A DNA stretch of 47,192 bases from Candidatus Peribacteraceae bacterium (GTDB lineage Bacteria; Patescibacteriota; Gracilibacteria; Peribacterales; Peribacteraceae): the NCBI GenBank assembly GCA_030750465.1, contig JASMHZ010000001.1:1-47192 (forward strand), written 5' to 3'. A model generated the notes under the pieces. That model did not search any database. It saw only the letters and a list, made by a program, of their open reading frames with translations, and had not been told where the DNA came from. Positions 4,742 to 43,148 of the stretch are shown one piece after another. The translations under genes and the position numbers were made by a program. Position 1 is the stretch's first letter; every line of letters begins with the position of its first letter.

Positions 4742-4780
4742 CCTCTCCCCCTCAGAAGGGGGAGAGGGTAGGGTGAGGGG
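4742..4780 (+). repeat. REP-like hairpin, copy 1
   Basis: An 11-base stem, CCTCTCCCCCT paired with AGGGGGAGAGG (4742-4767), is followed by a GGGTGAGGGG tail. A near-identical copy sits at 43110-43148, and related stems form the composite at 4907-5010. Confidence 0.8.
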
Positions 4781-4906: not shown

Positions 4907-5010
4907 GACCTCACCCCCTAACCCCCTCTCCTCTGCTGAGGAGAGGGGGAACTATGCCAATTGCAAAGCTCCCCTCTCCTGCTCACAGGAGAGGGGCCGG
5001 GGGTGAGGTC
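4907..5010. repeat. REPIN-like pair of inverted hairpins
   Basis: A 104-base unit bounded by 12-base perfect inverted ends, GACCTCACCCCC at 4907-4918 and GGGGGTGAGGTC at 4999-5010. Inside are two stems in opposite orientation, built on CCCCTCTCC and GGAGAGGGG. Two REP hairpins facing each other is the form mobilised by REP-associated (RAYT) transposases, and a broken RAYT gene lies at 39034. Confidence 0.75.
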
Positions 5011-7110: not shown

Positions 7111-7142
7111 ACAATTGACAATTGACAATTGACAATTGACAG
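7111..7142. repeat. 7-mer tandem array between MscS and idi
   Basis: More than four head-to-tail copies of CAATTGA, ending two bases before the idi start. The unit contains TTGACA, identical to a consensus -35 box. The same unit recurs at 29241 and, inverted, inside hmgR at 10713. Confidence 0.9.
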
Positions 7143-7143
7143 T

Positions 7144-7671
7144 ATGCTTATGCGACATGTTCTGCTTTGTGATGCTGATGGAAACATCCTAGAGGCCTGT
7201 GACAGACAAATTGCTCACGAAGGTGATGGTAAATTACATAGAGCATTCTCTATATTCATATTTAGAGATAATTGGAAGCAATTACTGATACAGAAAAGAT
7301 CCGATCGGAAACTATTCGGCGGATTGTGGGCAAATACATGTTGTTCTCACTTCCAGGAAAAGGAAGATCTAGAGATCCAAGCTGAAAAAAGGCTTGAGGA
7401 AGAATGTGGCTTTACTTGTGATCTAACTGAGTGCTCCTCCTTTGTATATCAGGCAAAAGATCCTAAGGGCAAAGGGGCCGAGTATGAATACGACACAATA
7501 TTTGTAGGAGAAGTTGATGGGGATATTGAGTTTAAATTGGATCCAGAAGAAGTTGAGGAGGCCAAATGGATAAATATAGATGAACTTATGAAGGATATTG
7601 ATGAACATAATGAAAATTACAGTCCATGGTTACCCTTAGCCTTAAAACATATACTCGAAACTGATCAATGA
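7144..7671 (+). CDS. idi: Isopentenyl-diphosphate isomerase, type I
   Basis: Interconverts isopentenyl and dimethylallyl diphosphate in the cytoplasm. It is a 175-residue Nudix-fold protein with LHRAFSIFIF, the catalytic Cys in NTCCSH (about residue 66) and the acidic block EYEYDTIF supplying the metal- and acid-base Glu. The ATG at 7144 (MLMRHVLL) is preferred; an upstream TTG would start inside the 7-mer array. It is the first gene of the isoprenoid run, and its TGA overlaps the uppS ATG (ATGA), so translation is coupled. Length fits the short bacterial form. Confidence 0.93.
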   Translation: MLMRHVLLCDADGNILEACDRQIAHEGDGKLHRAFSIFIFRDNWKQLLIQKRSDRKLFGGLWANTCCSHFQEKEDLEIQAEKRLEEECGFTCDLTECSSFVYQAKDPKGKGAEYEYDTIFVGEVDGDIEFKLDPEEVEEAKWINIDELMKDIDEHNENYSPWLPLALKHILETDQ

Positions 7672-8333
7672 ATAATGATAATGCAATCCATTTAGGCATT
7701 ATTCCTGACGGTAATAGGCGCTGGGCAAAATCGCGCAGTCTAAATCCCTGGAAAGGGCATGAGCAGGCTATTGAAAACTTCAAAGCACTAACTGAGTGGT
7801 GCAGAAACGACGAGAGAATTTCTGTTCTGACTGTTTGGTGCTTCTCGACCGAGAACTGGAAGCGCGAAAGACAAGAGATTGAAATGCTCATGAAGATGCT
7901 CGAGGATTATTTGAGGAAAGAACAAGAAAACTTCATCGAAAACAAGACTAAGTTTTGCCATTCCGGAAGAAAAGATCGAATCCCCTCTTCTTTAGCAGAG
8001 CTTATAAAGGAGGCAGAGGAAAAAACTTCTGACCAAACTGATTTCACACTTCATCTTGCAGTTGATTACGGAGGAAAAGATGAAATTGAGAGAGCTGCAA
8101 GAAAAATTTCCCCTGAATCTCCACTGAAGGAAAATCTTGATCACCCAGAACTGCCTGACATTGATATTATCATCCGAACTTCCGGCGAAAAACGAACTTC
8201 TAACTTCTTCATGTGGCAGGCGGCATACGCAGAGTGGATTTTTGAGGATAAATTGTTCCCTGACTTTTCTATTGACGATCTCCAAGTCGCTGTTGACAAT
8301 TTTTCTGACCGAAACCGCCGATTTGGAGAATGA
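7668..8333 (+). CDS. uppS: Undecaprenyl diphosphate synthase
   Basis: Cis-prenyltransferase that extends farnesyl diphosphate to the C55 lipid carrier for peptidoglycan and other wall polymers. All family motifs are present: IPDGNRRWAK with catalytic Asp14, FSTENWKR, VDYGGKDEI, and IIRTSGEKRTSNFFMWQ with the diphosphate-binding Arg, followed by YAEWIF. Length 221 residues is slightly short of the usual 240-250. Both ends overlap neighbours by ATGA (idi before, mvk after). Placing the main isoprenoid consumer inside the mevalonate operon ties the pathway to wall synthesis. Confidence 0.93.
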   Translation: MNNDNAIHLGIIPDGNRRWAKSRSLNPWKGHEQAIENFKALTEWCRNDERISVLTVWCFSTENWKRERQEIEMLMKMLEDYLRKEQENFIENKTKFCHSGRKDRIPSSLAELIKEAEEKTSDQTDFTLHLAVDYGGKDEIERAARKISPESPLKENLDHPELPDIDIIIRTSGEKRTSNFFMWQAAYAEWIFEDKLFPDFSIDDLQVAVDNFSDRNRRFGE

Positions 8334-9193
8334 AAACTACCGGTTCAGCTCCGGGAAAGATAATTCTTGCTGGCGAGTATGCAGTTGTATTCGGATATCC
8401 CGGAATCGCAGTCCCCTCTTTGCCAAGAATGAAGACCGAATTTGAAGAAGATAGAAATTGTGAGGAAATTGAGATTGAGTGGGAAGGCATTAAAGGAGAT
8501 CGCCATTGGGATGCCTATTTAAGAGATATTCTAAGCCAAATTCAGAAGTTCAAAGGCAAGATTTTGGAGGGACACCTGACAATATCGAACCAAATTCCTC
8601 TTGGGAAAGGTATGGGTTCATCGACTTCTCTTGTAATTGCAGTCAGCAGATGCCTACTCGGTGAAGATTGCCGATCCGAAGCTCTCGCAATTGAAAAAGG
8701 CTTAAGTCCCCACAACAGCGGAATCGATTTCAATGTAATTTGGGAAGACTCTCCTATCCTTTATAAGAAAGATGAGGGATGTAAACCAATTGAGTTGCCC
8801 AATGACATACTTAAGGATGCGATTTTGATTGATACAGGAAAGCCAAATGAAACGACGAGTGAATTGATTGAATTTGTTGATAATCGTCGTTCATCTGAGC
8901 CGGATATATACAAAGCGCTGGAAGAAATTGGAGCGTGCACACAAAGACTTATCGACAAAGATGATTTTGAATCAATTATTAAAGATAATTATCAATCACA
9001 ACTAATTCTTGAAATCGTTCCACCAGAAGTACAGAGTCTGATCGAAGAAATTGAATCATCCGGAGGTGCATCCAAGGTTTTGGGAGCCGGAGGAAGGACC
9101 GGAGGAGGAGGAATGGTATTGGCTATCACCAAAAAACCTGAGATTTTTCAAGTAATACTAGACAAACACCAGTTAAAATATATCCAAGTATAA
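8330..9193 (+). CDS. mvk: Mevalonate kinase (GHMP family)
   Basis: Phosphorylates mevalonate at the 5-hydroxyl. GHMP motifs are in order: SAPGKIILAGEYAVVFG (residues 6-22), the phosphate loop IPLGKGMGSSTS (89-100), HNSGIDFNVIW with the catalytic Asp133, and the C-terminal glycine loop (GAGGRTGGGGMVLAI). The SGID block favours mevalonate kinase, while AGEYAVV also occurs in phosphomevalonate kinases, so that activity is the main alternative. At 287 residues it is on the short side. It overlaps uppS by ATGA and precedes mvaD by 37 bases. Confidence 0.8.
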   Translation: MKTTGSAPGKIILAGEYAVVFGYPGIAVPSLPRMKTEFEEDRNCEEIEIEWEGIKGDRHWDAYLRDILSQIQKFKGKILEGHLTISNQIPLGKGMGSSTSLVIAVSRCLLGEDCRSEALAIEKGLSPHNSGIDFNVIWEDSPILYKKDEGCKPIELPNDILKDAILIDTGKPNETTSELIEFVDNRRSSEPDIYKALEEIGACTQRLIDKDDFESIIKDNYQSQLILEIVPPEVQSLIEEIESSGGASKVLGAGGRTGGGGMVLAITKKPEIFQVILDKHQLKYIQV

Positions 9194-9230
9194 GAAATCA
9201 TTCTCAATTATCCATTTTCCATTCTCAATT

Positions 9231-10280
9231 ATGATCACAGCATCCTCCTCCCCCAACTCCGCATGGATTAAGTACTGGGGAAACCGAAATGATCCGCTTA
9301 GAATTCCAATGGCCGATTCATTCTCTATGAGTTTGGACGGTCCAAATGTAGAGATTGATATTGATCATTCGCCTGAGCTTGTTGTGCATTCCTTTAATCC
9401 AGATGGCACAGAAAAGATTCTTGGAGAGAAGCACGTGGCTCGGTTTGGAAAGACTCTGGAAAACGTAAAGACGTATCTGGCCAAGCTTGAAGCACCTGAC
9501 GCTATTCCTGCATCATGTAATATTACAGTCAGATCAAATATTCCATCTGCCGTAGGTCTTGCTTCTTCATCCGCAGTCTTCAGCTGTCTCGCAAAAGCAA
9601 TACAAGGTTTGATTGCAGAAACTATCGAACTCACTGACGACCAAGCTAGTGTTATTGGAAGACTTGGATCCGGTTCCGCAGGGCGAAGTGTGCACGGAGG
9701 ATTTGTTGCACTTGTTGCAGGCGAAGGAGAAGAAATCGACAGTGCATACGGAAAGCAATTTGCAGATGAGAATCATTGGCCCCTGCATGACATTATTGTT
9801 GTTCCAACAATGATCGAGAAAAAAATCGGTTCAACAGAAGGCCATCCAACTGCACACAGTAGTCCTCACTACAAAGACCGTGTTGATGCCATCATGAACT
9901 GCAGACAAAAGGAGTGCATCGATGCGGTGCTCGCAAAAGATTTCGAAAAACTTACATACGTTTGCGAAGAAGACGTTCTGGACATGCATATGGTGATGCA
10001 AACCTCAACTCCTGCGCTTCATTACTTAACTGACGACACTCATCGCATCACAGAAGGGATAATTGAACTTAGAAATGCTGAGCATCTCCCCGTTTTTTAC
10101 ACAATGGATGCAGGACCAACTGTTCAGTTGATTTGTACCGATGAGTCAGTCGACCGAGTTCGTGAGTTTGCCTACGCGCAGGAAGGATGCAAAGTGTTTG
10201 AAGCAAAGACCGGTGCGGGAGCAAAGATCATTAAGGAATTAGTTCACACTGAGCGCAGTCGAAGTGCTACCGTTGCTTAA
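9231..10280 (+). CDS. mvaD: Diphosphomevalonate (or phosphomevalonate) decarboxylase
   Basis: A GHMP-family decarboxylase that yields isopentenyl diphosphate, or isopentenyl phosphate if it is the phosphomevalonate type. Motifs seen: IKYWGNRNDPLRIP near residue 13, NIPSAVGLASSSAVF (phosphate loop), GSGSAGRSVHGGFV, IGSTEGH, MHMVMQTSTPALHYL and FYTMDAGPT with the catalytic Asp. Classic enzymes have KYWGKR where this one has KYWGNR. Because no phosphomevalonate kinase of the usual kind is seen nearby, the substrate (mono- or diphosphate) is open. Length 349 residues is normal. The 36-base spacer before it is a CATTCTCAATTAT duplication. Confidence 0.8.
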   Translation: MITASSSPNSAWIKYWGNRNDPLRIPMADSFSMSLDGPNVEIDIDHSPELVVHSFNPDGTEKILGEKHVARFGKTLENVKTYLAKLEAPDAIPASCNITVRSNIPSAVGLASSSAVFSCLAKAIQGLIAETIELTDDQASVIGRLGSGSAGRSVHGGFVALVAGEGEEIDSAYGKQFADENHWPLHDIIVVPTMIEKKIGSTEGHPTAHSSPHYKDRVDAIMNCRQKECIDAVLAKDFEKLTYVCEEDVLDMHMVMQTSTPALHYLTDDTHRITEGIIELRNAEHLPVFYTMDAGPTVQLICTDESVDRVREFAYAQEGCKVFEAKTGAGAKIIKELVHTERSRSATVA

Positions 10281-10301
10281 GCTTTTATTCGTTGTATATA
10301 C

Positions 10302-10345
10302 CTGCCTGCCGGCAGGCAGGCACTGTATGTACAATGTACATACAA
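10302..10345. repeat. Two palindromes before hmgR
   Basis: A perfect 20-base palindrome (CCTGCCTGCC and its complement, 10302-10321) is followed by a TGTATGTACA / TGTACATACA inverted repeat (about 10324-10344). The second ends four bases before the hmgR ATG. Either could be a hairpin controlling hmgR translation or part of the dispersed hairpin family. Confidence 0.7.
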
Positions 10346-10348
10346 TCT

Positions 10349-11533
10349 ATGGACCTTAGAACTCTGCCAACAGGCTTAAATTCCTTCGACCGTTGCGACG
10401 AACGACGCAAGACCATAGAAAGAGAGCTAGGAGCGGATTTAGGAGCATTATCTGTTGACCCCAGTAAGCTTGGAAACGCTGAAGAGAAGAACTGTGAGCA
10501 AATGTTCGGGCACGTTCCGATTCCGGTCGGTCTTGCAGGACCTCTTAACGTTCAATTCTCTTCAGGCAAGACTGCTGATATCCATCTTCCCCTTGCAACA
10601 ACTGAAGGTGCACTTGTCGCAAGCGTTAATAGAGGATGTAAAGCCTTGAACTTAGCTGGTGGCGTAAAAACTTCATCGACATATCACGGAATAACTCGCT
10701 CTTTGGCTTTCCGAATTGTCAATTGTCAATTGTCAATTGTCAATTCGTTACAAAAACTAGAATCGAAATGGAAACAGATCGGAGAAAGTACCAGTAACCA
10801 CCTTAAGATAATTAGTTTTTGCATTGATGAAGCTGATGATCATATTTTTCTGACAATTAACTGCGATACAGACGAAGCAATGGGAATGAACATGGTGACA
10901 ATCGCGGCGCAAGCAATTGGAGAATGGTTGCAGTCTAATATTGAAGGACTTGAGTTCGTAACAGTTGCAGGAAATGTAGACTCGGATAAAAAACCAAGTA
11001 AAAGAACACACGACTTGGGTAGAGGTTACGAAGTAATTGCGGAAGCTGAGCTTTCCGAAGATGTCATCAGAGAAGTTTTGAAGTCTGATTCTGAGTCACT
11101 CACAAAAACTGCCCATGCCAAACTTGATGTCGGATCAAAGTTAGCCGGAGCACTTGGTTCAAACCTTCACGCCACCAACATCATCTCCGCCTTGTACCTT
11201 GCAACCGGTCAAGACTCTGCGCATGTTGTTGAAGGCTCGTTGACTGATACGACAATCGACACGTCCGCCAAGGCGGACTCTCAACAATCAACAATCAACA
11301 TAAGAGTCCGTTGTCCTGCAATACTTATTGGAGTGCGAGGTGGAGGAACTCAGTTACCTGCTCAAAAACAATGTCTTGATCTTATTCTCAAGTCGATTGT
11401 CGATTGTCGATTGTCGAAGGCCAGACAACTGGCCGAGATTGTAGGAGCTGCCGTTCTGGCAGGCGAAATATCACTCTTAGCTGCTCAAGCAACGCATACC
11501 TTGGCTAAGGCACATGGAAAGCTTGGAAGGTAA
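10349..11533 (+). CDS. hmgA: HMG-CoA reductase (class I) with three repeat-derived insertions
   Basis: Reduces HMG-CoA to mevalonate with NADPH. Motifs: EQMFGHVPIPVGLAGPL, ATTEGALVASVNRG with catalytic Glu86, DEAMGMNM, AGNVDSDKKPS with catalytic Lys, GSNLHATNII, and the C-terminal TLAKAHGKLG with catalytic His. The start is at 10349 (MDLRTLP); the longer reading would translate the palindromes. Three stretches match the dispersed repeats and keep the frame: residues 122-133 (10713-10746), about 301-318 (11250-11302, including a hairpin) and about 349-357 (11393-11419). All lie between conserved blocks, and every catalytic motif is intact, so the enzyme is probably active. At 394 residues it is near family size. 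Confidence 0.92.
   Translation: MDLRTLPTGLNSFDRCDERRKTIERELGADLGALSVDPSKLGNAEEKNCEQMFGHVPIPVGLAGPLNVQFSSGKTADIHLPLATTEGALVASVNRGCKALNLAGGVKTSSTYHGITRSLAFRIVNCQLSIVNSLQKLESKWKQIGESTSNHLKIISFCIDEADDHIFLTINCDTDEAMGMNMVTIAAQAIGEWLQSNIEGLEFVTVAGNVDSDKKPSKRTHDLGRGYEVIAEAELSEDVIREVLKSDSESLTKTAHAKLDVGSKLAGALGSNLHATNIISALYLATGQDSAHVVEGSLTDTTIDTSAKADSQQSTINIRVRCPAILIGVRGGGTQLPAQKQCLDLILKSIVDCRLSKARQLAEIVGAAVLAGEISLLAAQATHTLAKAHGKLGR
10713..10746. repeat. 7-mer array inside hmgR (1)
   Basis: Four copies of AATTGTC plus AATT, the reverse complement of the array before idi. It is read in frame as residues 122-133 (RIVNCQLSIVNS). Confidence 0.9.
11250..11302. repeat. 7-mers around a hairpin inside hmgR (2)
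   Basis: A GTCCGCC/GGCGGAC hairpin (11263-11278) is flanked by CAATCGA-type and ACAATCA-type 7-mers. It is read in frame as a Thr/Ser/Asp/Gln-rich segment between the VEGSL block and the GGGTQLP block. Confidence 0.85.
11393..11419. repeat. 7-mer array inside hmgR (3)
   Basis: Three and a half copies of TCGATTG, in frame, encoding SIVDCRLSK just before the helix carrying ARQLAEIVG. Confidence 0.85.
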
Positions 11534-11540
11534 AGTATTA

Positions 11541-11568
11541 TTGACAATCACCAATTTTAAGCTATAAT
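11541..11568 (+). promoter_or_regulatory. Sigma70-type promoter of the 11699 gene
   Basis: TTGACA at 11541-11546 and TATAAT at 11563-11568, both perfect consensus, with a 16-base spacer. Transcription would begin near 11575, giving a 5' leader of about 125 bases. The -35 lies in TTGACAATCA, similar to the dispersed 7-mers. Confidence 0.8.
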
Positions 11569-11623
11569 TCTTCAGTCATTCTCGCATTGAGAATGTGATC
11601 ATTTATACATCGAACAGATAACC

Positions 11624-11670
11624 GGAAGCGGCAATTTTCTGCATCAATTGTGCCGAGTATTGCCGTTTCC
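11624..11670 (+). promoter_or_regulatory. Leader hairpin of the 11699 gene
   Basis: Arms GGAAGCGGCAAT (11624-11635) and ATTGCCGTTTCC (11659-11670) form 12 pairs with one G-U. It ends 28 bases before the ATG, with an AGGAG ribosome site in between. It may stabilise the mRNA or regulate translation. Confidence 0.6.
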
Positions 11671-11698
11671 AAGTGAGTCTCAAACCCAGGAGTCCGAG

Positions 11699-12103
11699 AT
11701 GAAAAAACTTGCTAGCTACATTGTCGTTCTCGTTGTCACGGCGGCTGCTGCATACCTACTGGGTGCTCAGGACGCCAAGAATGAACGAAACCAGGAGCTC
11801 GAGGAGAAGGTCAAACTCTACGCGGGCATGGTCGTGTTCTATCAGCATGAAGACGAACGCGAAGATATCATGGATGATATCGAGAAATGTCTGGTGGAGT
11901 GGGATTCTGCCTCGAAACCTCCCGCGGATGAGTCTGAAGGCCTGCGCAACGTGAAGGCACTCACCCTCCTGCTGGACACGAAAATGAATCTGAACAATAG
12001 GATCGAAAGCTTCAACGATAGGATAGAAGCGCTCGACCTGACAACCAAGGAAGGAGTGCCTCCGGGAGAAAAACCGCTGGTTGAAATTCCCAGCATCGAC
12101 TGA
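11699..12103 (+). CDS. Single-pass membrane protein in its own transcription unit
   Basis: A 134-residue protein. Residues 4-22 form a membrane segment or uncleaved signal (ASYIVVLVVTAAAAYLLGA). The rest is a charged helical domain (ELEEKVKLYAG, then DEREDIMDDIEKCLVEW) facing outside, with a Pro-rich tail. Family unknown. It starts at ATG 11699 after an AGGAG site, unlike most genes here. It has a consensus promoter, a structured leader and its own terminator, and its composition is more GC-rich than its neighbours. It thus looks like an independent, well-expressed unit placed between hmgR and hmgS. Confidence 0.8.
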   Translation: MKKLASYIVVLVVTAAAAYLLGAQDAKNERNQELEEKVKLYAGMVVFYQHEDEREDIMDDIEKCLVEWDSASKPPADESEGLRNVKALTLLLDTKMNLNNRIESFNDRIEALDLTTKEGVPPGEKPLVEIPSID

Positions 12104-12159
12104 TCGTCTCCTCCTCACTCCTCTGCTTTGATTTTTTCTCTGTTCGATTGTCACCCCTC

Positions 12160-12191
12160 CTCCGCCTCACCGGTGGAGGCGAGGCCTTTTT
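12160..12191 (+). terminator. Intrinsic terminator after the 11699 gene
   Basis: Stem CGCCTC (12163-12168) with GAGGCG (12176-12181), extendable with one bulge, then AGGCC and a T-run. It separates the 11699 unit from hmgS. Confidence 0.85.
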
Positions 12192-12239
12192 ATTATTCTT
12201 TTTTGTTTTTATGTGTCTGTTTTCCTATAAAATTATCTC

Positions 12240-13259
12240 GTGACACACAGTGCAATAATCAGTTTCGGCCAATACATCCCTTCAAAGAGAATTAAAACTG
12301 AAGAGATTGCGAAAAGTCATAACCAAGATCCTGCTTCGTACATAAAAGGACTGGGTGTGACGGAAAAAACTGTTCCTGACCACGGGGAAGATGCATTTAC
12401 GATGGCAGTTGAGGCCGGACGAGTTGCATTGGATACATCCGAATTAAAATCGAGTCAGATCTCCGCAGTTTTTGTAGGATCTGAGAGTCACCCGTACGCA
12501 GTTAAACCAACAAGTGGAATGGTTGCCTCTGCTCTTGAGTGCCATTCGTTTTCACATTGTGCTGACCTGGAGTTTGCATGCAAAGCAGGAACAGCCGGAA
12601 TGCAGATTGTGGACAGCATGGTCAGGTCAGGTCAGATAGAGTACGGACTTGCAATCGGCTCAGACACAGCACAAGGCAAACCCGGTGATGCGCTTGAGTA
12701 CACAGCGGCCGCAGGTGCCGGTGCAATAATTATCGGTCCTGAGAATGACAAAAATGCCATTTGCAGACTCGAAAAGACTCTGAGCTTTACAACAGACACT
12801 CCGGACTTCTGGAGAGCGTCTGATAAGAAGTATCCGGAGCACGCCGGAAGGTTTACAGGCGAACCCGCTTACTTCCGCCACGTTGAAGAAGCACTTAAAG
12901 GGATTTTGGAAGTTTCTGAACTTAAGGTTTCTGACATTGATCACGCAATCTTTCACATGCCAAATGCAAAATTCCCATCAAAAGTTGCTAAAAAGTTTAA
13001 TCTGAACAAAGAACAAATGAAGCACGGTTTTATAGTTCCCGAAATTGGAAACACATATTCAGCTTGCTCCCTTTTGGGACTGATTAATGTCCTTCAGAAT
13101 GCAAAAAAGAATGAGAAAATACTGCTTGTAAGCTATGGATCAGGAGCAGGATCCGATGCATTTGTGTTTACAATGCTCAAAGACGGAATACCCCTCCCTT
13201 CAGATACAAGAAATAATGAATATATTAGTTATGGCGAATATCTGAAATGCACCTCCTAG
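12240..13259 (+). CDS. hmgS: HMG-CoA synthase, archaeal type
   Basis: Condenses acetyl-CoA with acetoacetyl-CoA. Signatures of the archaeal branch: SESHPYAVKPTSGM with the catalytic Glu, EFACKAGTAG with nucleophile Cys114, GRFTGEPAYFRHV, and IFHMPNAKFP with the catalytic His. It starts at GTG 12240; TATAAA lies 8 bases upstream, so the mRNA is probably leaderless. At 339 residues it is about ten shorter than usual. It ends ISYGEYLK then CTS, and the stop lies at the edge of the next repeat, so the last residues may have been replaced by repeat sequence. Thiolase and the DUF35 fusion follow, the gene set that forms a substrate-channelling complex in archaea. Confidence 0.9.
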   Translation: MTHSAIISFGQYIPSKRIKTEEIAKSHNQDPASYIKGLGVTEKTVPDHGEDAFTMAVEAGRVALDTSELKSSQISAVFVGSESHPYAVKPTSGMVASALECHSFSHCADLEFACKAGTAGMQIVDSMVRSGQIEYGLAIGSDTAQGKPGDALEYTAAAGAGAIIIGPENDKNAICRLEKTLSFTTDTPDFWRASDKKYPEHAGRFTGEPAYFRHVEEALKGILEVSELKVSDIDHAIFHMPNAKFPSKVAKKFNLNKEQMKHGFIVPEIGNTYSACSLLGLINVLQNAKKNEKILLVSYGSGAGSDAFVFTMLKDGIPLPSDTRNNEYISYGEYLKCTS

Positions 13260-13403
13260 GAAACAGAAGAACCAGAGGATTAAGAGGAAACAGAAGAGTA
13301 AACTGAGTGTGCCTTTATTAACTGATTTATTAACAAATCCTCTGTTTCCTCTGTTTCTTTTGTTTCTTCTGTTTCCTCTATTTTGCTTCTTCTGTTTCCT
13401 TTT
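13259..13403. repeat. Inverted short-repeat arrays between hmgS and thiolase
   Basis: The left arm carries GGAAACAGAAGA-type units (13259-13305). The right arm carries at least five units of a 9-base TCTGTTTCC/T pattern (about 13338-13402). The arms are complementary and could fold into a long imperfect hairpin, as in the other gap elements. Confidence 0.8.
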
Positions 13404-13421
13404 AGTAGGATACTCACAAAT

Positions 13422-14531
13422 ATGAACCAGGATGTGTTTATTGTAGGTACAGGCCAAACGCCTTTTGGCGAGCATTGGGACAAAAGCCTAAAGGACTTGA
13501 TGGGCGAAGCAGTAACTTCTGCCATCGATAACTCGGATCTGACCGCACTTGATATCGATTTCATCATTGTTTCTAACATGCTTGGCGAAAGAACTAACGA
13601 TCAAGCTCATTTAGGCGCAATGGCATCCGCATTACTTCCCCATCGTCCTCCTGCACTTAGAACCGAAGCTGCCTGCGCATCAGGATCCGTTGCAGTTCAC
13701 ACCGCAATAAGTCTGCTTGAAAGCGGAAGAGCAGAAAATGTATTGGTAATAGGGGTCGAGAAGATGACCGACGTTTCATCCGAAGAAATTTCTTTAAGCT
13801 TAATGGGGGCAGCTGATGCCGAGAAGGATATTCCGACAGGCCTGACCTTTCCTGGAATCTTCGGACTGATCACAAACAGATATATGCATGAATACGGACT
13901 AACGAGAGAGAAACTTAATAAGGTTAGTGCCAAACATCACGCAAATGCCGCGAAAAATCCGAATGCACAGTTTAGAAATGCAATTCCTGAGGAAAAAATT
14001 TCACAAAGTCCATCAATTGCAGACCCTTTGTGCTTACTGGACTGCTCACCAATTTCTGACGGAGCTTCTGCAGTCATCCTATCTTCAACCAATGAGTCCC
14101 CTATCAAGATCAAAGCTTCCCAAGTGAGCACGGATACTCTTAGCATTGCCGAGCGCCCTTCCATTACATCATTCCCCGCAACACGAGACGCTATGGATAG
14201 AGCTTTGGATGAGGCCGAAATTACGCGCGACGACATCGCACATCTGGAAACACATGATTGTTTCTCTATCGCAGCTGTAATTAATCTGGAAGATCTTGGA
14301 TTTGCAGCCCCTGGCAGAGGAATACGCTTATATGAGAGTGATTCAAAACCCTCTGTAAACGCATCTGGAGGATTGAAGGCCTGTGGACATCCTGTTGGAG
14401 CAACCGGCATCAAGCAAATTGTTGATCTGATTAAACAACTCAAGTCTTCGAATGAGAAATATGCACTTGCTCATAATTTTGGAGGAGCCGGCGCCACTTG
14501 TTGTATTCATATTTTAGAAAATGTCAGTTAA
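13422..14531 (+). CDS. Acetoacetyl-CoA thiolase, archaeal/SCP-x type
   Basis: Condenses two acetyl-CoA to acetoacetyl-CoA. The nucleophile is Cys85 in EAACASGSVAVH. The C-terminal active-site blocks are ETHDCFSIAAV and GGLKACGHPVGATG with the catalytic His. The lack of the extra loop of bacterial biosynthetic thiolases and the HDCF motif place it in the SCP-x/archaeal group. The start is ATG 13422 (MNQDVFIVG); the upstream frame would translate repeat sequence. Length 369 residues. It follows hmgS and precedes the DUF35 fusion. Unfavourable thiolase equilibrium is normally overcome by close coupling to HMG-CoA synthase. Confidence 0.9.
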   Translation: MNQDVFIVGTGQTPFGEHWDKSLKDLMGEAVTSAIDNSDLTALDIDFIIVSNMLGERTNDQAHLGAMASALLPHRPPALRTEAACASGSVAVHTAISLLESGRAENVLVIGVEKMTDVSSEEISLSLMGAADAEKDIPTGLTFPGIFGLITNRYMHEYGLTREKLNKVSAKHHANAAKNPNAQFRNAIPEEKISQSPSIADPLCLLDCSPISDGASAVILSSTNESPIKIKASQVSTDTLSIAERPSITSFPATRDAMDRALDEAEITRDDIAHLETHDCFSIAAVINLEDLGFAAPGRGIRLYESDSKPSVNASGGLKACGHPVGATGIKQIVDLIKQLKSSNEKYALAHNFGGAGATCCIHILENVS

Positions 14532-38498: not shown

Positions 38499-38731
38499 AG
38501 AGCAGATGGGAGGGGAGCCACCCCTAAAAAACAAAAACAAATAAACATTCTCACCGCTTTTTTACTCCTCTCGAGGGACTAAAAGGCTACGAGATTTGTA
38601 ACTCATAGATAGATTCGCCTTTCACATTTTCCGCCCAGTCACGCTTACCTTCTACATTTTGGTACTTGCTGGGGATCTGGAAATTAAAAGGTAAGAAATT
38701 ATATCGGATGGCTCCCATCCTCTCTGCTCTG
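38499..38731. mobile_element. MITE-like unit with imperfect inverted ends
   Basis: The left end (AGAGCAGATGGGAGGGGAGC) and the reverse complement of the right end (AGAGCAGAGAGGATGGGAGC) share 24-26 imperfect bases. Inside, a minus-strand frame reads NFQIPSKYQNVEGKRDWAEN before stopping at about 38597, possibly the tail of a lost gene. No transposase lies inside. It could also be a structured RNA. Confidence 0.4.
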
Positions 38732-38972
38732 CGATGACGCTCCGTTTATGTGAGGTTGTTTTACGGGGTGCATCCACTTACTCCCCATGTATGCCTTCGC
38801 TTCGGCGATGTTTTGTGTACTGGTCGGGGACTTCGTTCGGTTGCGAGGAGAAACAAGAAACCTAAGCAAGGCAGGGATTCGAGGGCTCCTCCCCTTAGTC
38901 CGCATCCGCTTAATCCCGTCTCAGTTAGCCTACAGTGCTTCTGATAGTCGGAGGACGCGAGACAAAACAAAC

Positions 38973-39009
38973 ACAAAAAGGCCATTAAGTATACCTATGG
39001 TCTTTTTGT
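38973..39009. terminator. Bidirectional hairpin before the RAYT gene
   Basis: ACAAAAAGGCC (38973-38983) pairs with GGTCTTTTTGT (38999-39009) with one G-T pair, ending in T-runs on both strands. Confidence 0.5.
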
Positions 39010-39306
39010 TTATGGTACAGTTTTAGGCTTTATATGCCTCAGATTCATTATTCACAACATGGCACATTCCACATCGTTACAAATGCAAAAGATGGTATTC
39101 CTTGGTGTACATACGATGGCATTCCGGAAATATTGATTGATAATCTTGTGATGACAAGAAATATTCAGAAGGCGAGGATATTTGCGTTCTGTATACTGCC
39201 AGATCATATGCATGTTTTGATATGTCCGAGTGAACTGGGATTGAGTAAGTTTATGCAGTCATTCAAATGCAATAGCTCACGTGATGTCAGGCGACACATA
39301 TTGACC

Positions 39307-39336
39307 CGAAGCAGCGACGCCGGCGTCGCTGCTTCG
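39307..39336. repeat. 30-base perfect palindrome inside the RAYT gene
   Basis: CGAAGCAGCGACGCC followed directly by its complement. It is a multiple of three and keeps the reading frame. Confidence 0.9.
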
Positions 39337-39440
39337 ACTGACGATATATTTTGGCAAAAAGGATATTACGACGAACACATCAAATCATCTGCGCAACGAT
39401 CACGCGTCACCAGATACATTCGGAATAATCCTGTGAAGCT

Positions 39441-39552
39441 CCACGGCTTTGAAAGCCGTGGCTTCTAAAAGGTTCATAGAAATCTTGATGCGGAACCCTG
39501 CGTAGCCATTCAAACAACAAATACGCATTCATCTCCGGCTTAAAAGCCGGAG
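39441..39552. repeat. Two REP-like hairpins at the RAYT break
   Basis: CCACGGCTTT/AAAGCCGTGG (39441-39461) and CTCCGGCTT/AAGCCGGAG (39533-39552) face the same way around a 70-base spacer. The first supplies the last codons and stop of the truncated frame. Confidence 0.85.
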
Positions 39553-39660
39553 CGTACTGCGAAGCGGGGTTAATCACAAACTTGTAGATGATGTGACCAA
39601 ATGGCCTTGGATCTCCCTGCAATATCAAAACCTAATGGATGAAATGGATATTTGGCCTGA

Positions 39661-42363
39661 TTAACCCGCTTTTTTCTCCCTTTTTTCCTTCATTGCAATC
39701 ATCGTCTTACTTGGCTCCGGCACTCCCCCACTGTCTTGTAGTTTTTTCTCGAGCTCAGCCCTAGACTTGACCTCCTCTTCTGACAATGCCTCGCCCATAA
39801 ACTCCTTTTTCCTGATCATGTTGAAGTCATTTACCCACATTTCGCGATCGCGCCATGCGCGGTATTCATCCAGCTTCATTCCTTTCTTTCTGGCCTTTTT
39901 GACTTCCTCCTCTTCCTTCTCTTTTGCTTTTCCGGCTTTCTTGGCATCTTTCTTTGCAGCTGACGAGGCCTGGGCCCATTTGAAAATATTATCTTCCACA
40001 ACCTTTCGATCACGAGTGTATCTCTCGCGGGAAAGAGTCCTTATTTTATCTGTGCGACCCTCATCTTGTTGCCAAGCTGGAGGAGGCAGAGTAGATACAG
40101 AGAATGGCTTGGAGTTAACTCCGTCAATCATCAGTCTGATGTATGCGTGATACTTTGGCAGACTGAGGATGTCTTTGACTGATACTGCTTCTTCGAACTG
40201 CAAACTGATATCCTCGGCATCATCTGACCCCACTTGGAAGCTGACGATAGTTCCAACGTTTCCAAACACCGCATCTCTGAGCGACGTGTTTTTATCATCT
40301 ATTAAAAGCTGTGCCACGTACTGGTTTGCCATTGTTAAACTGAGTTTATATTTTCGAGCCTCAGATAAAATCGTCGCAAAGGACTCAGTTGCAAAGTTTT
40401 GGAACTCATCAACATACAGATAGAAGTCTTTTCGATCTTTTTCCGGAATATCCGCTCTACCCATGGCATCTATCTGGAACTTAGTTACAAGCATCGCTCC
40501 AAGGAAGGCGGAGATGTCTTCTCCGAGCTTTCCTTTGCTCAAATTCACAATGATTATCTTGCCGGTGTCCATTGCATGCCTAACGTCGAGCGTGCTTTTA
40601 ACTTGTCCGACTATATTTCTCATTACGGGAGTTGTAAGAAGTTGCCCAACTTTGTTTTGAATGGCAGAAATTGCTTCGGTTCTATATTTTTCTGACCAAA
40701 CGGCATACTCATCTTCCCAGAAGCTCTTAACCAACGGATCCGTAACCTTTGCCACGACCTTCTCTCGATATGCATCATCTGCAAACATGCGCATTATTCC
40801 AAGCATGGATGAACCTTGATACTCGATTAGTGCCAAAAGAACATTTCTTAAGATGTGTTTCATTCTTTCACTCCATACGTCCGGCCATAGCTTCTCGAAG
40901 ACTGACATTAATCCCGATGCGACTATTGCATACTGATCCGGATTATTACACTCAAGCATATTAAAGGAGAGTGGAAAATCCTTGTCTGCAGGATCGAAGA
41001 TAACTACGTCATTAGAGCGCTCCTTTGGAATAAAACTAATAGCCGAGTCAGCCAAATCTCCGTGAGGATCAATTACAGCAAGACCCTTGCCAGCATGAAT
41101 GTCACTGAAAATCATGTTTTCCAAAATAGTCGTTTTACCCATACCTGTTTTTCCTATCACATATACATGACGTCGCCTGTCGTCCGGTCGAATGCCGAAC
41201 TTTGTTCTCTGCCCTCTGTATACAGCTTCACCGAGAACAGTCACATCATCGTCATCTGATAATGGAAGTTCGATAGGCGGCTCCAGTTTCTTTGAAATCA
41301 CCCAATCTATATTCGGCGTTTGTACCAATATATTCGGAATATGCCAAAGAGTTGCAATTTCTTCCGCTGATAGAATGTACGGACGTATTTTAATTCCGTG
41401 GGCAACTGTTGATGACTGTTTGGAACTGAGCATTTTGAACGCATTGCATTCAGGTAGAGAAAACTGGCTGAAGCTTCCTGACATTTCATCAAGTTTAATG
41501 AGCGCCTGCTCTTTATTTCCCTTTGGAACTATTACGCTGACTCTGACGTTGCATGAGAATAGCAATCTGTTGACCTTATCGACGGCAGCAGTCACTGGAT
41601 TTTCTCTGTCATGAGTTCTGGCGCTCGCCGCTTGCATCTCCGCTTCATCCGGATCGGAAGACATAATCATTTCACCAGTCTTCATATCTATAGGAGCAGT
41701 AAAATATTTGTTAAACCCCGGCCAAGCCCTAAATCCTCCAAGAAAAGAAGCAATTGGAAAGAATATGATTCTTCTCCATCCCCGTGCCAATTGCATGCGC
41801 GTGAAAAAAGTAGCAAATCGCTTGGATATCGAAGGCATTCCCTTCTGAAGAAGAGGAACAAACCTAAGCGCGCGCCTCCTGTATTCTCTTTTAAGTGGCT
41901 TCATTACAATCTGTACATGCCCGCGCATTCCTTTAACTGGAACACGAGCGAAGCTTGAAGTTATACCGGCAATTGGATCTACATTAACGCGCGTTAACAT
42001 ATCATCAAATTGCGGATGACGTTTTATTGGGAAGATTTCCGGATCAACAAAACTCAAATCTGCATAATATACTTCCTCGTCCTCATTAGCTTTAAATGGA
42101 TCTTCCGTGAGAATCTCAATATCGACATCAGGATACTGTGCATATATCTGGCTCTCGGCAAGTCTGGCTCCCCTTTCGGTTCCACGGACGTAAAAACTGA
42201 TCTTACTATCCCGGCCCATACCAATCTCCATGCTTATTTCCCGGTCATTTCCCTTTAATGAGTGCAATGCCGAAACTGCAGGTTCCATATATAGCGGACC
42301 TCTGTGCAATTTTTCATCAGGGTCTTCCTGAGCCGGTCTGATTTTTAGCAATGTTTCTGACAT
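39661..42363 (-). CDS. TraG/VirD4-like membrane-associated ATPase
   Basis: A 900-residue AAA+-like ATPase of the type IV coupling/DUF87 group, common in Patescibacteria. Walker A VIGKTGMGKTT at about residue 403, then VIDPHGDLADSAI, a middle all-helical domain, Walker B FYLYVDEFQNFATE at about 650, and LTMANQYVAQL arginine-finger region. The N-terminal 380 residues are a mixed domain (ARLAESQIYAQYPDVDIEI), with a hydrophobic patch near residue 200. The C-terminal 130 residues are Lys/Glu helix. No other conjugation genes are nearby, so a role in pilus or DNA transport is inference. Confidence 0.85.
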   Translation of the reverse strand: MSETLLKIRPAQEDPDEKLHRGPLYMEPAVSALHSLKGNDREISMEIGMGRDSKISFYVRGTERGARLAESQIYAQYPDVDIEILTEDPFKANEDEEVYYADLSFVDPEIFPIKRHPQFDDMLTRVNVDPIAGITSSFARVPVKGMRGHVQIVMKPLKREYRRRALRFVPLLQKGMPSISKRFATFFTRMQLARGWRRIIFFPIASFLGGFRAWPGFNKYFTAPIDMKTGEMIMSSDPDEAEMQAASARTHDRENPVTAAVDKVNRLLFSCNVRVSVIVPKGNKEQALIKLDEMSGSFSQFSLPECNAFKMLSSKQSSTVAHGIKIRPYILSAEEIATLWHIPNILVQTPNIDWVISKKLEPPIELPLSDDDDVTVLGEAVYRGQRTKFGIRPDDRRRHVYVIGKTGMGKTTILENMIFSDIHAGKGLAVIDPHGDLADSAISFIPKERSNDVVIFDPADKDFPLSFNMLECNNPDQYAIVASGLMSVFEKLWPDVWSERMKHILRNVLLALIEYQGSSMLGIMRMFADDAYREKVVAKVTDPLVKSFWEDEYAVWSEKYRTEAISAIQNKVGQLLTTPVMRNIVGQVKSTLDVRHAMDTGKIIIVNLSKGKLGEDISAFLGAMLVTKFQIDAMGRADIPEKDRKDFYLYVDEFQNFATESFATILSEARKYKLSLTMANQYVAQLLIDDKNTSLRDAVFGNVGTIVSFQVGSDDAEDISLQFEEAVSVKDILSLPKYHAYIRLMIDGVNSKPFSVSTLPPPAWQQDEGRTDKIRTLSRERYTRDRKVVEDNIFKWAQASSAAKKDAKKAGKAKEKEEEEVKKARKKGMKLDEYRAWRDREMWVNDFNMIRKKEFMGEALSEEEVKSRAELEKKLQDSGGVPEPSKTMIAMKEKREKKAG

Positions 42364-43109: not shown

Positions 43110-43148
43110 CCTCTCCCCCTTAGAAGGGGGAGAGGTTGGGTGAGGGGC
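43110..43148 (+). repeat. REP-like hairpin, copy 2
   Basis: CCTCTCCCCCT/AGGGGGAGAGG (43110-43135) then GGGTGAGGGGC, matching 4742-4780 in stem and tail with a few differences in the loop. Confidence 0.85.

Follow-up and report, generated by a model that had tools for sequence, protein, structure and literature searches.

Why does the reading frame of a RAYT transposase gene end early in this genome, leaving its C-terminal codons stranded beyond two hairpins? Could the enzyme have placed its own REPs, or a REPIN, in its own gene and so inactivated itself, as a first-pass annotation of this DNA proposed? We analysed the whole stretch of 47,192 nucleotides (contig JASMHZ010000001.1, positions 1 to 47,192; hereafter the window) and compared the gene with its relatives. 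Very probably, the gene has kept a self-embedded REP and was broken by something separate, a 136-bp insertion of IS200/IS605-like design. Comparison of sequences carries this reading: it reveals the empty site, the ends of the insert, its family of copies, a palindrome in intact homologs, and the match of that palindrome to flanking and scattered REPs.

On this reading, the RAYT of a Candidatus Peribacter-like CPR bacterium would have carried its own REP in frame for much of the history of the family, in a surface loop, presumably disordered, that joins the HuH half of the protein to the Tyr half. Separately, a 136-bp element that is absent from the compared congener would have entered the gene on the opposite strand, immediately 3' to a TTYAC target, shifting the frame after residue 135 and removing a conserved C-terminal segment. 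An IS200/605-type TnpA may have mobilised the element in trans, and the 144-aa product would be inactive. The features concerned are:

39034–39468, plus strand: truncated RAYT (TnpA_REP) ORF, 144 aa, matching PF01797 and NCBIfam NF047646
39205–39213, plus strand: HuH motif codons H58-M-H60, invariant alignment columns across the family
39307–39336, plus strand: perfect 30-bp palindrome, in frame (RSSDAGVAAS), putative self-embedded cognate REP in the alphaC-beta4 loop, with feet GAAG/CTTC, not GTAG/CTAC
39415–39417, plus strand: catalytic tyrosine codon Y128, invariant column, upstream of the break
39433–39568, minus strand: inserted non-autonomous element, 136 bp, IS200/IS605-like design, delimited by the empty ortholog site and by family copies
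39435–39465, minus strand: right-end hairpin (GAAGCCACGGCTTTCAAAGCCGTGGAGCTTC on the minus strand), followed by right-end CTTCAC
39533–39552, minus strand: left-end hairpin within the conserved frame CTTCGCAG...GATGAATGCG
39569–39573, minus strand: target flank TTAAC, on the left side of the element, without duplication; TTTAC at the empty site of the ortholog
39575–39664, plus strand: displaced RAYT C-terminus, 29 codons and stop (HKLVDDVTKWPWISLQYQNLMDEMDIWPD; codons 39575–39661, stop 39662–39664)

The RAYT gene and its intact ortholog

The truncated ORF is recognised as Y1_Tnp by Pfam (PF01797, E 1e-12) and reaches 80.3 bits against the NCBIfam model REP_Tyr_transpos (NF047646, cut-off 80), a cut-off that its relatives also exceed. 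The IS200 transposase model scores below its own cut-off on the same ORF, which places the gene closer to REP_Tyr_transpos than to the IS200 transposases. The HuH motif and single tyrosine of a Y1 HUH transposase are both present, with H58, H60 and Y128 invariant. An AlphaFold model of the intact ortholog (mean pLDDT 90) has its best PDB match in the REP-bound E. coli RAYT 4er8 (Foldseek E 2.5e-9; Z 16.3 over 136 residues). Domain, family and fold matches alike thus bear out the first-pass annotation in calling the gene a RAYT.

A syntenic ortholog with shared neighbours on both sides and 76% amino acid identity is found in Ca. Peribacter sp. UBA2144 (G003:C64), and its frame stays open to the natural end NNPVNHKLVDDASKWPWSSLHYENLMDEMDIWPD. 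Relative to this gene, the window has a net 136 bp extra between NNPV and HKLVDD: the ortholog reads CCT-GTAAA-TCAC, the window CCT-(136 bp)-GTTAA-TCAC. Given this empty site, the C-terminus was displaced by one insertion, at 39433–39568, which throws the gene out of frame after residue 135 and brings in the stop at 39466–39468, the final nine residues of the truncated ORF (LHGFESRGF) coming from the insert. Looking for the unbroken gene in relatives was a check that the first-pass annotation had suggested; the intact syntenic ortholog upholds its claims that the RAYT is broken and that the displaced segment is the true C-terminus, and the two hairpins that it described between NNPVK and the displaced HKLVDDVTKWPW are indeed there. 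Measured against the ortholog, dN/dS is 0.115 before the insert and 0.10 after it; the displaced codons have not decayed further, which fits a recent insertion.

Might the break instead be a chimeric join, produced during metagenome assembly or binning? The source genome (G000), the one genome of its species in the comparison, is a draft of 64 contigs that is 82% complete, and a faulty join would not be out of place in such a draft. Both flanks of the break are collinear with the ortholog, however, and the insert has both ends of a complete family member, its edges coinciding with the target rule of that family. An artefact of this kind is extremely improbable.

What would become of the truncated protein? 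The predicted 144-aa product keeps HuH and Tyr, loses a folded and conserved C-terminus, and is probably defective. In the ortholog model the segment lost from the window has a pLDDT of 94–98, the last residues excepted, and in the family alignment it carries invariant H, W and S columns. E. coli TnpA_REP deprived of 21 or 34 C-terminal residues has serious defects in both binding and cleavage (PMC8266576). Retention of HuH and Tyr would suit a protein that still works as a RAYT or has a regulatory role, as would the low dN/dS on either side of the insert, although the history recorded there mostly predates the insertion. Set against the invariant residues and confident fold of the lost part, and against the E. 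coli deletions, a working 144-aa protein is improbable.

An in-frame palindrome kept in the RAYT gene

The palindrome at 39307–39336 is perfect and in frame, just as first described, and is the longest in the 47-kb window. First-order shuffles lead one to expect, per window, about 0.05 palindromes with 12-bp arms and none with 15-bp arms. At the corresponding codons the ortholog is also perfectly palindromic, with AGCAGCGACCCGCGGGTCGCTGCT in place of the AGCAGCGACGCCGGCGTCGCTGCT of the window. Between them 4/24 bases differ, all as two complementary (mirror) pairs, so that both sequences remain perfect palindromes; synonymous sites of the two genes are near saturation. A third allele, AGCAGCGAGCCATGGCTCGCTGCT in genome G035, is likewise still palindromic.

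How widespread is such a palindrome? We surveyed the 28 nearest Peribacteria homologs together with the window gene (n = 29 CDSs) for palindromes whose arms span 9 bp or more. An in-CDS palindrome is present in 17/29, always starting at codons 87–103, and the in-gene palindromes of Peribacteria RAYTs reach 44 nt. Among shuffled CDSs, 78/5800 (1.3%) had a comparable one. For a RAYT tree we kept the alignment columns with residues in 80% or more of rows, and so dropped most of the variable loop; on this tree 3 changes suffice to explain where the in-gene REP occurs. Shuffled presence gives a mean of 9.6 changes, and 0/500 shuffles were as low. Its frequency among homologs, fixed position and few changes on the tree argue that the palindrome is old and kept, not sporadic damage. 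Judged from these alignments, it is no lesion: it is tolerated, and is kept palindromic while its sequence changes. The first-pass annotation had named the presence of hairpin-coded residues in intact homologs as grounds for abandoning self-inactivation; intact homologs do share the palindrome.

In the ortholog model, the loop encoded by the palindrome follows helix 70–94 (after HuH), precedes strand 122–126 (before the Tyr helix), and has a pLDDT of about 55. RAYT genes use the REP in the reading frames CGT-AGC or GTA-GC (codons read by eye); the third frame would give the stop TAG. Rfam matches to FinP and osmY around the palindrome were set aside, as they lie below the gathering scores and any strong hairpin gives them. 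A distant RAYT with a 394-aa frame (L025, G010:C34) has a 44-nt perfect coding palindrome (1610–1653) at a similar position, +32 to +46 after HuH.

Flanking hairpins accompany the RAYT genes L079–L082, L086, L087, L098, L101 and L103. For L079, L080, L086, L101 and L103, the in-gene palindrome is identical to a hairpin beside the same gene; where the gene has no internal palindrome, the hairpin often stands upstream and/or downstream, as for L081, L082, L087 and L098. Pattern searches, on which all REP counts here are based, found the same REP family dispersed in G000, G001, G002, G003 and G035, with one further exact copy in the window genome (C16:182), and, among the matches listed, multiple copies of GTAGC..GCTAC REPs in G023 and G035. 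This match to flanking and scattered REP hairpins (GTAGC..GCTAC) suggests that the palindrome is a self-embedded cognate REP. Double-foot REPs of the type GTAG..CTAC are present in the Peribacteria set, for example GTAGCGGAAGATCGCGATCTTCCGCTAC, and the form GTAGCAGCGAC..GTCGCTGCTAC is a candidate RAYT substrate. The window palindrome stands apart from it with feet GAAG..CTTC instead, which makes recognition of this copy by the RAYT doubtful.

Could the internal REP be a working part of the gene, serving as the substrate of its own enzyme or as a self-binding hairpin in the coding strand? We consider this possible, though on present evidence we would sooner doubt it. Were it true, the REP could provide autoregulation or keep enzyme and REP matched, and selection would act on palindromicity rather than on sequence. 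Selection may keep up the palindromicity, as may template-switch correction or re-seeding from other REPs; for telling selection for a self-embedded REP from mere re-seeding, the Peribacteria set offers a clean comparative system.

A related arrangement is known. In TnpA_REP subclass 2.4, double-foot REPs occur together with REPs in frame within the tnpA_REP gene, reported as a unique feature of that subclass, with its variable insertion domain placed after beta3 and before alphaC (Quentin et al. 2018, PMC6006769). The Peribacteria genes resemble subclass 2.4 both in REPs whose two feet read GTAG and CTAC (PMC6006769) and in a cognate REP in frame between HuH and Tyr, here in 17/29 genes. Unlike in subclass 2.4, their palindrome lies 34–43 residues after HuH, between alphaC and beta4. 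In the ortholog (L077) and some further genes that have extra insertions, it sits slightly later in the same loop; the outgroups L155 and L133 show the beta3-alphaC position, 14–25 residues after HuH. A term search of the main text of PMC6006769 found no mention of candidate phyla. An in-frame self-REP is thus a known habit; by these comparisons, what is new is a different loop and a lineage that the paper does not name.

The hairpin family also enters other genes. Two REP palindromes lie in frame within uvrC of G003 (L055, G003:C74, 1467–1524), a site at which the window genome has none (LNRGANLSGEPCLEEQ). Two G023 genes that we take from their translations to be cysS and uppS (L178 and L182) each have one in-frame REP, GTAGCCGGCGGTTTAAACCGCCGGCTAC (GSRRFKPPAT), near-identical copies of which number at least about ten in that genome. 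We know of no dedicated transposase for the Rickettsia palindromic elements; the present hairpin family, in contrast, is physically tied to a RAYT, and in-frame palindromes in housekeeping genes (uvrC, cysS, uppS) are thereby linked to the RAYT of the same lineage. Intragenic GTAG REPs in repair genes were already known (PMC3733652), and they have been reviewed along with the Rickettsia elements (PMC10969869). Like both, the Peribacteria REPs form short in-frame palindromes in repair and tRNA-synthetase genes, here uvrC (two), cysS and uppS.

The 136-bp inserted element

What, then, broke the gene? Relatives of the insert were gathered by DNA and pattern search, aligned and folded, and the alignment of seven founding copies reveals compensatory base pairs in which both sides have changed. 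A covariance model search of 74 genomes from the taxonomic family finds about 52 copies in 25 of them, with 9 as the highest number in any one genome. The window element matches model R1 at 39433–39573 (129 bits, E 1.3e-29). This is the single R1 match in its genome, where a DNA search turned up no second copy of the insert, whereas G203 and G204 carry more R1 copies; the exact pattern of the insert was also not found in viral contigs. On the minus strand, a TTYAY flank on the left is followed by CCCGCCTTCGCAG-hairpin-GATGAATGCG; then come a middle part that closes with GGGTTYCGC, another hairpin and, as right end, GGAGCTTYAY. In 12/14 scored copies the left flank and the right end agree in the final base of TTYAY. 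The left flank in the window, TTAAC, departs from the TTYAC rule by one base.

IS200/IS605 elements retain their target on the left and repeat it at the right end, with no duplication, and have a hairpin near each end. The present family shows a fixed short target without duplication, repetition of that target at the right end, and subterminal hairpins at both ends. No autonomous TnpA-encoding partner with shared ends was found beside 30 copies, and an IS200-like TnpA in the window genome (C5:24707) was rejected as mobiliser, its flanks lacking the end motifs of the element. Because neither neighbourhood yielded a partner, membership in IS200/IS605 is what we infer from the design. The element resembles the MITEs and PATEs derived from IS200/IS605 in its length of about 140 bp, its hairpin near each end, its placement 3' to a fixed short target, and the recurrence of that target at the right end without duplication. 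Unlike these, it forms a distinct sequence family with a strongly conserved interior and compensatory pairs. The copies L211–L240 are mostly 113–181 bp long and structured, and their interior is too conserved for a plain MITE.

Owing to this conserved internal sequence, the element may amount to more than a MITE and be, for instance, a guide-RNA-like gene. A solo guide-RNA (omegaRNA-like) unit of an IS605/IS607 TnpB or IscB transposon, its interior conserved for RNA function, would account for the internal motifs CTTCGCAG, GATGAATGCG and GGGTTYCGC, for the compensatory base pairs, and for a right end that abuts the flank, placed, we presume, as a TnpB guide RNA scaffold would be. Its transcript would end exactly at GGAGCTTCAC. 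Yet the insert matched no Rfam family, HEARO included, even at a permissive E-value, which tells against HEARO and other known RNAs, and a crude motif scan saw no TnpB-like ORF beside 30 copies. We give the guide-RNA unit a minority share of our belief. With no Rfam match, and no description in the limited literature compared, the 136-bp family appears to be undescribed.

The opening question can now be put to the element itself. Had the RAYT inactivated itself, a cognate REP inside the gene would be expected, and one does sit there; the two hairpins at the break, about 70 bp apart, are superficially REPIN-like as well. That REP, however, is in frame and common to intact orthologs. The insert has no sequence match to the cognate REP and no GTAG foot, and its family targets TTYAY and occurs in G006, G022, G024 and G032, where no match to this RAYT was detected. 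Since the palindrome is common to intact homologs and the breaking element is unrelated to REP, self-inactivation is unsupported, and we regard it as very improbable. The idea that these hairpins are of the kind mobilised by RAYTs survives for the in-frame palindrome, which matches the REPs, and fails for the two breaking hairpins, which belong to a different, 136-bp family. The preferred reading, a kept REP and a separate insertion, tells two look-alikes apart: harmless REP hairpins in their own transposase gene and a foreign, gene-breaking mini-element.

Other features of the window

Just upstream of the RAYT gene, about 300 non-coding nucleotides (38706–39010, plus strand) end in a terminator-like hairpin. 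Over 308 bases their identity to the congener is 97%, higher than that of the RAYT, and matches occur in 34/59 relatives, all of the same taxonomic family and mostly with one or two copies. The core is GAGGAGAAACAAGAAACC..AGCAAGGCAG. A search of Rfam gave no match to this region, which is a candidate undescribed structured RNA.

A second hairpin family, of the type CCCCTCTCC..GGAGAGGGG, is unrelated to the RAYT hairpins. It occurs in the window at 4742–4767, 4922–4949, 4971–4996 and 43110–43135, with similar copies in L006 and L057.

Finally, a run of genes at 7129–14531 resembles, by its translations, a mevalonate pathway in a CPR genome; from these translations we take the genes to encode IPP isomerase, UPP synthase, a kinase, a decarboxylase, HMG-CoA reductase, HMG-CoA synthase and a thiolase.
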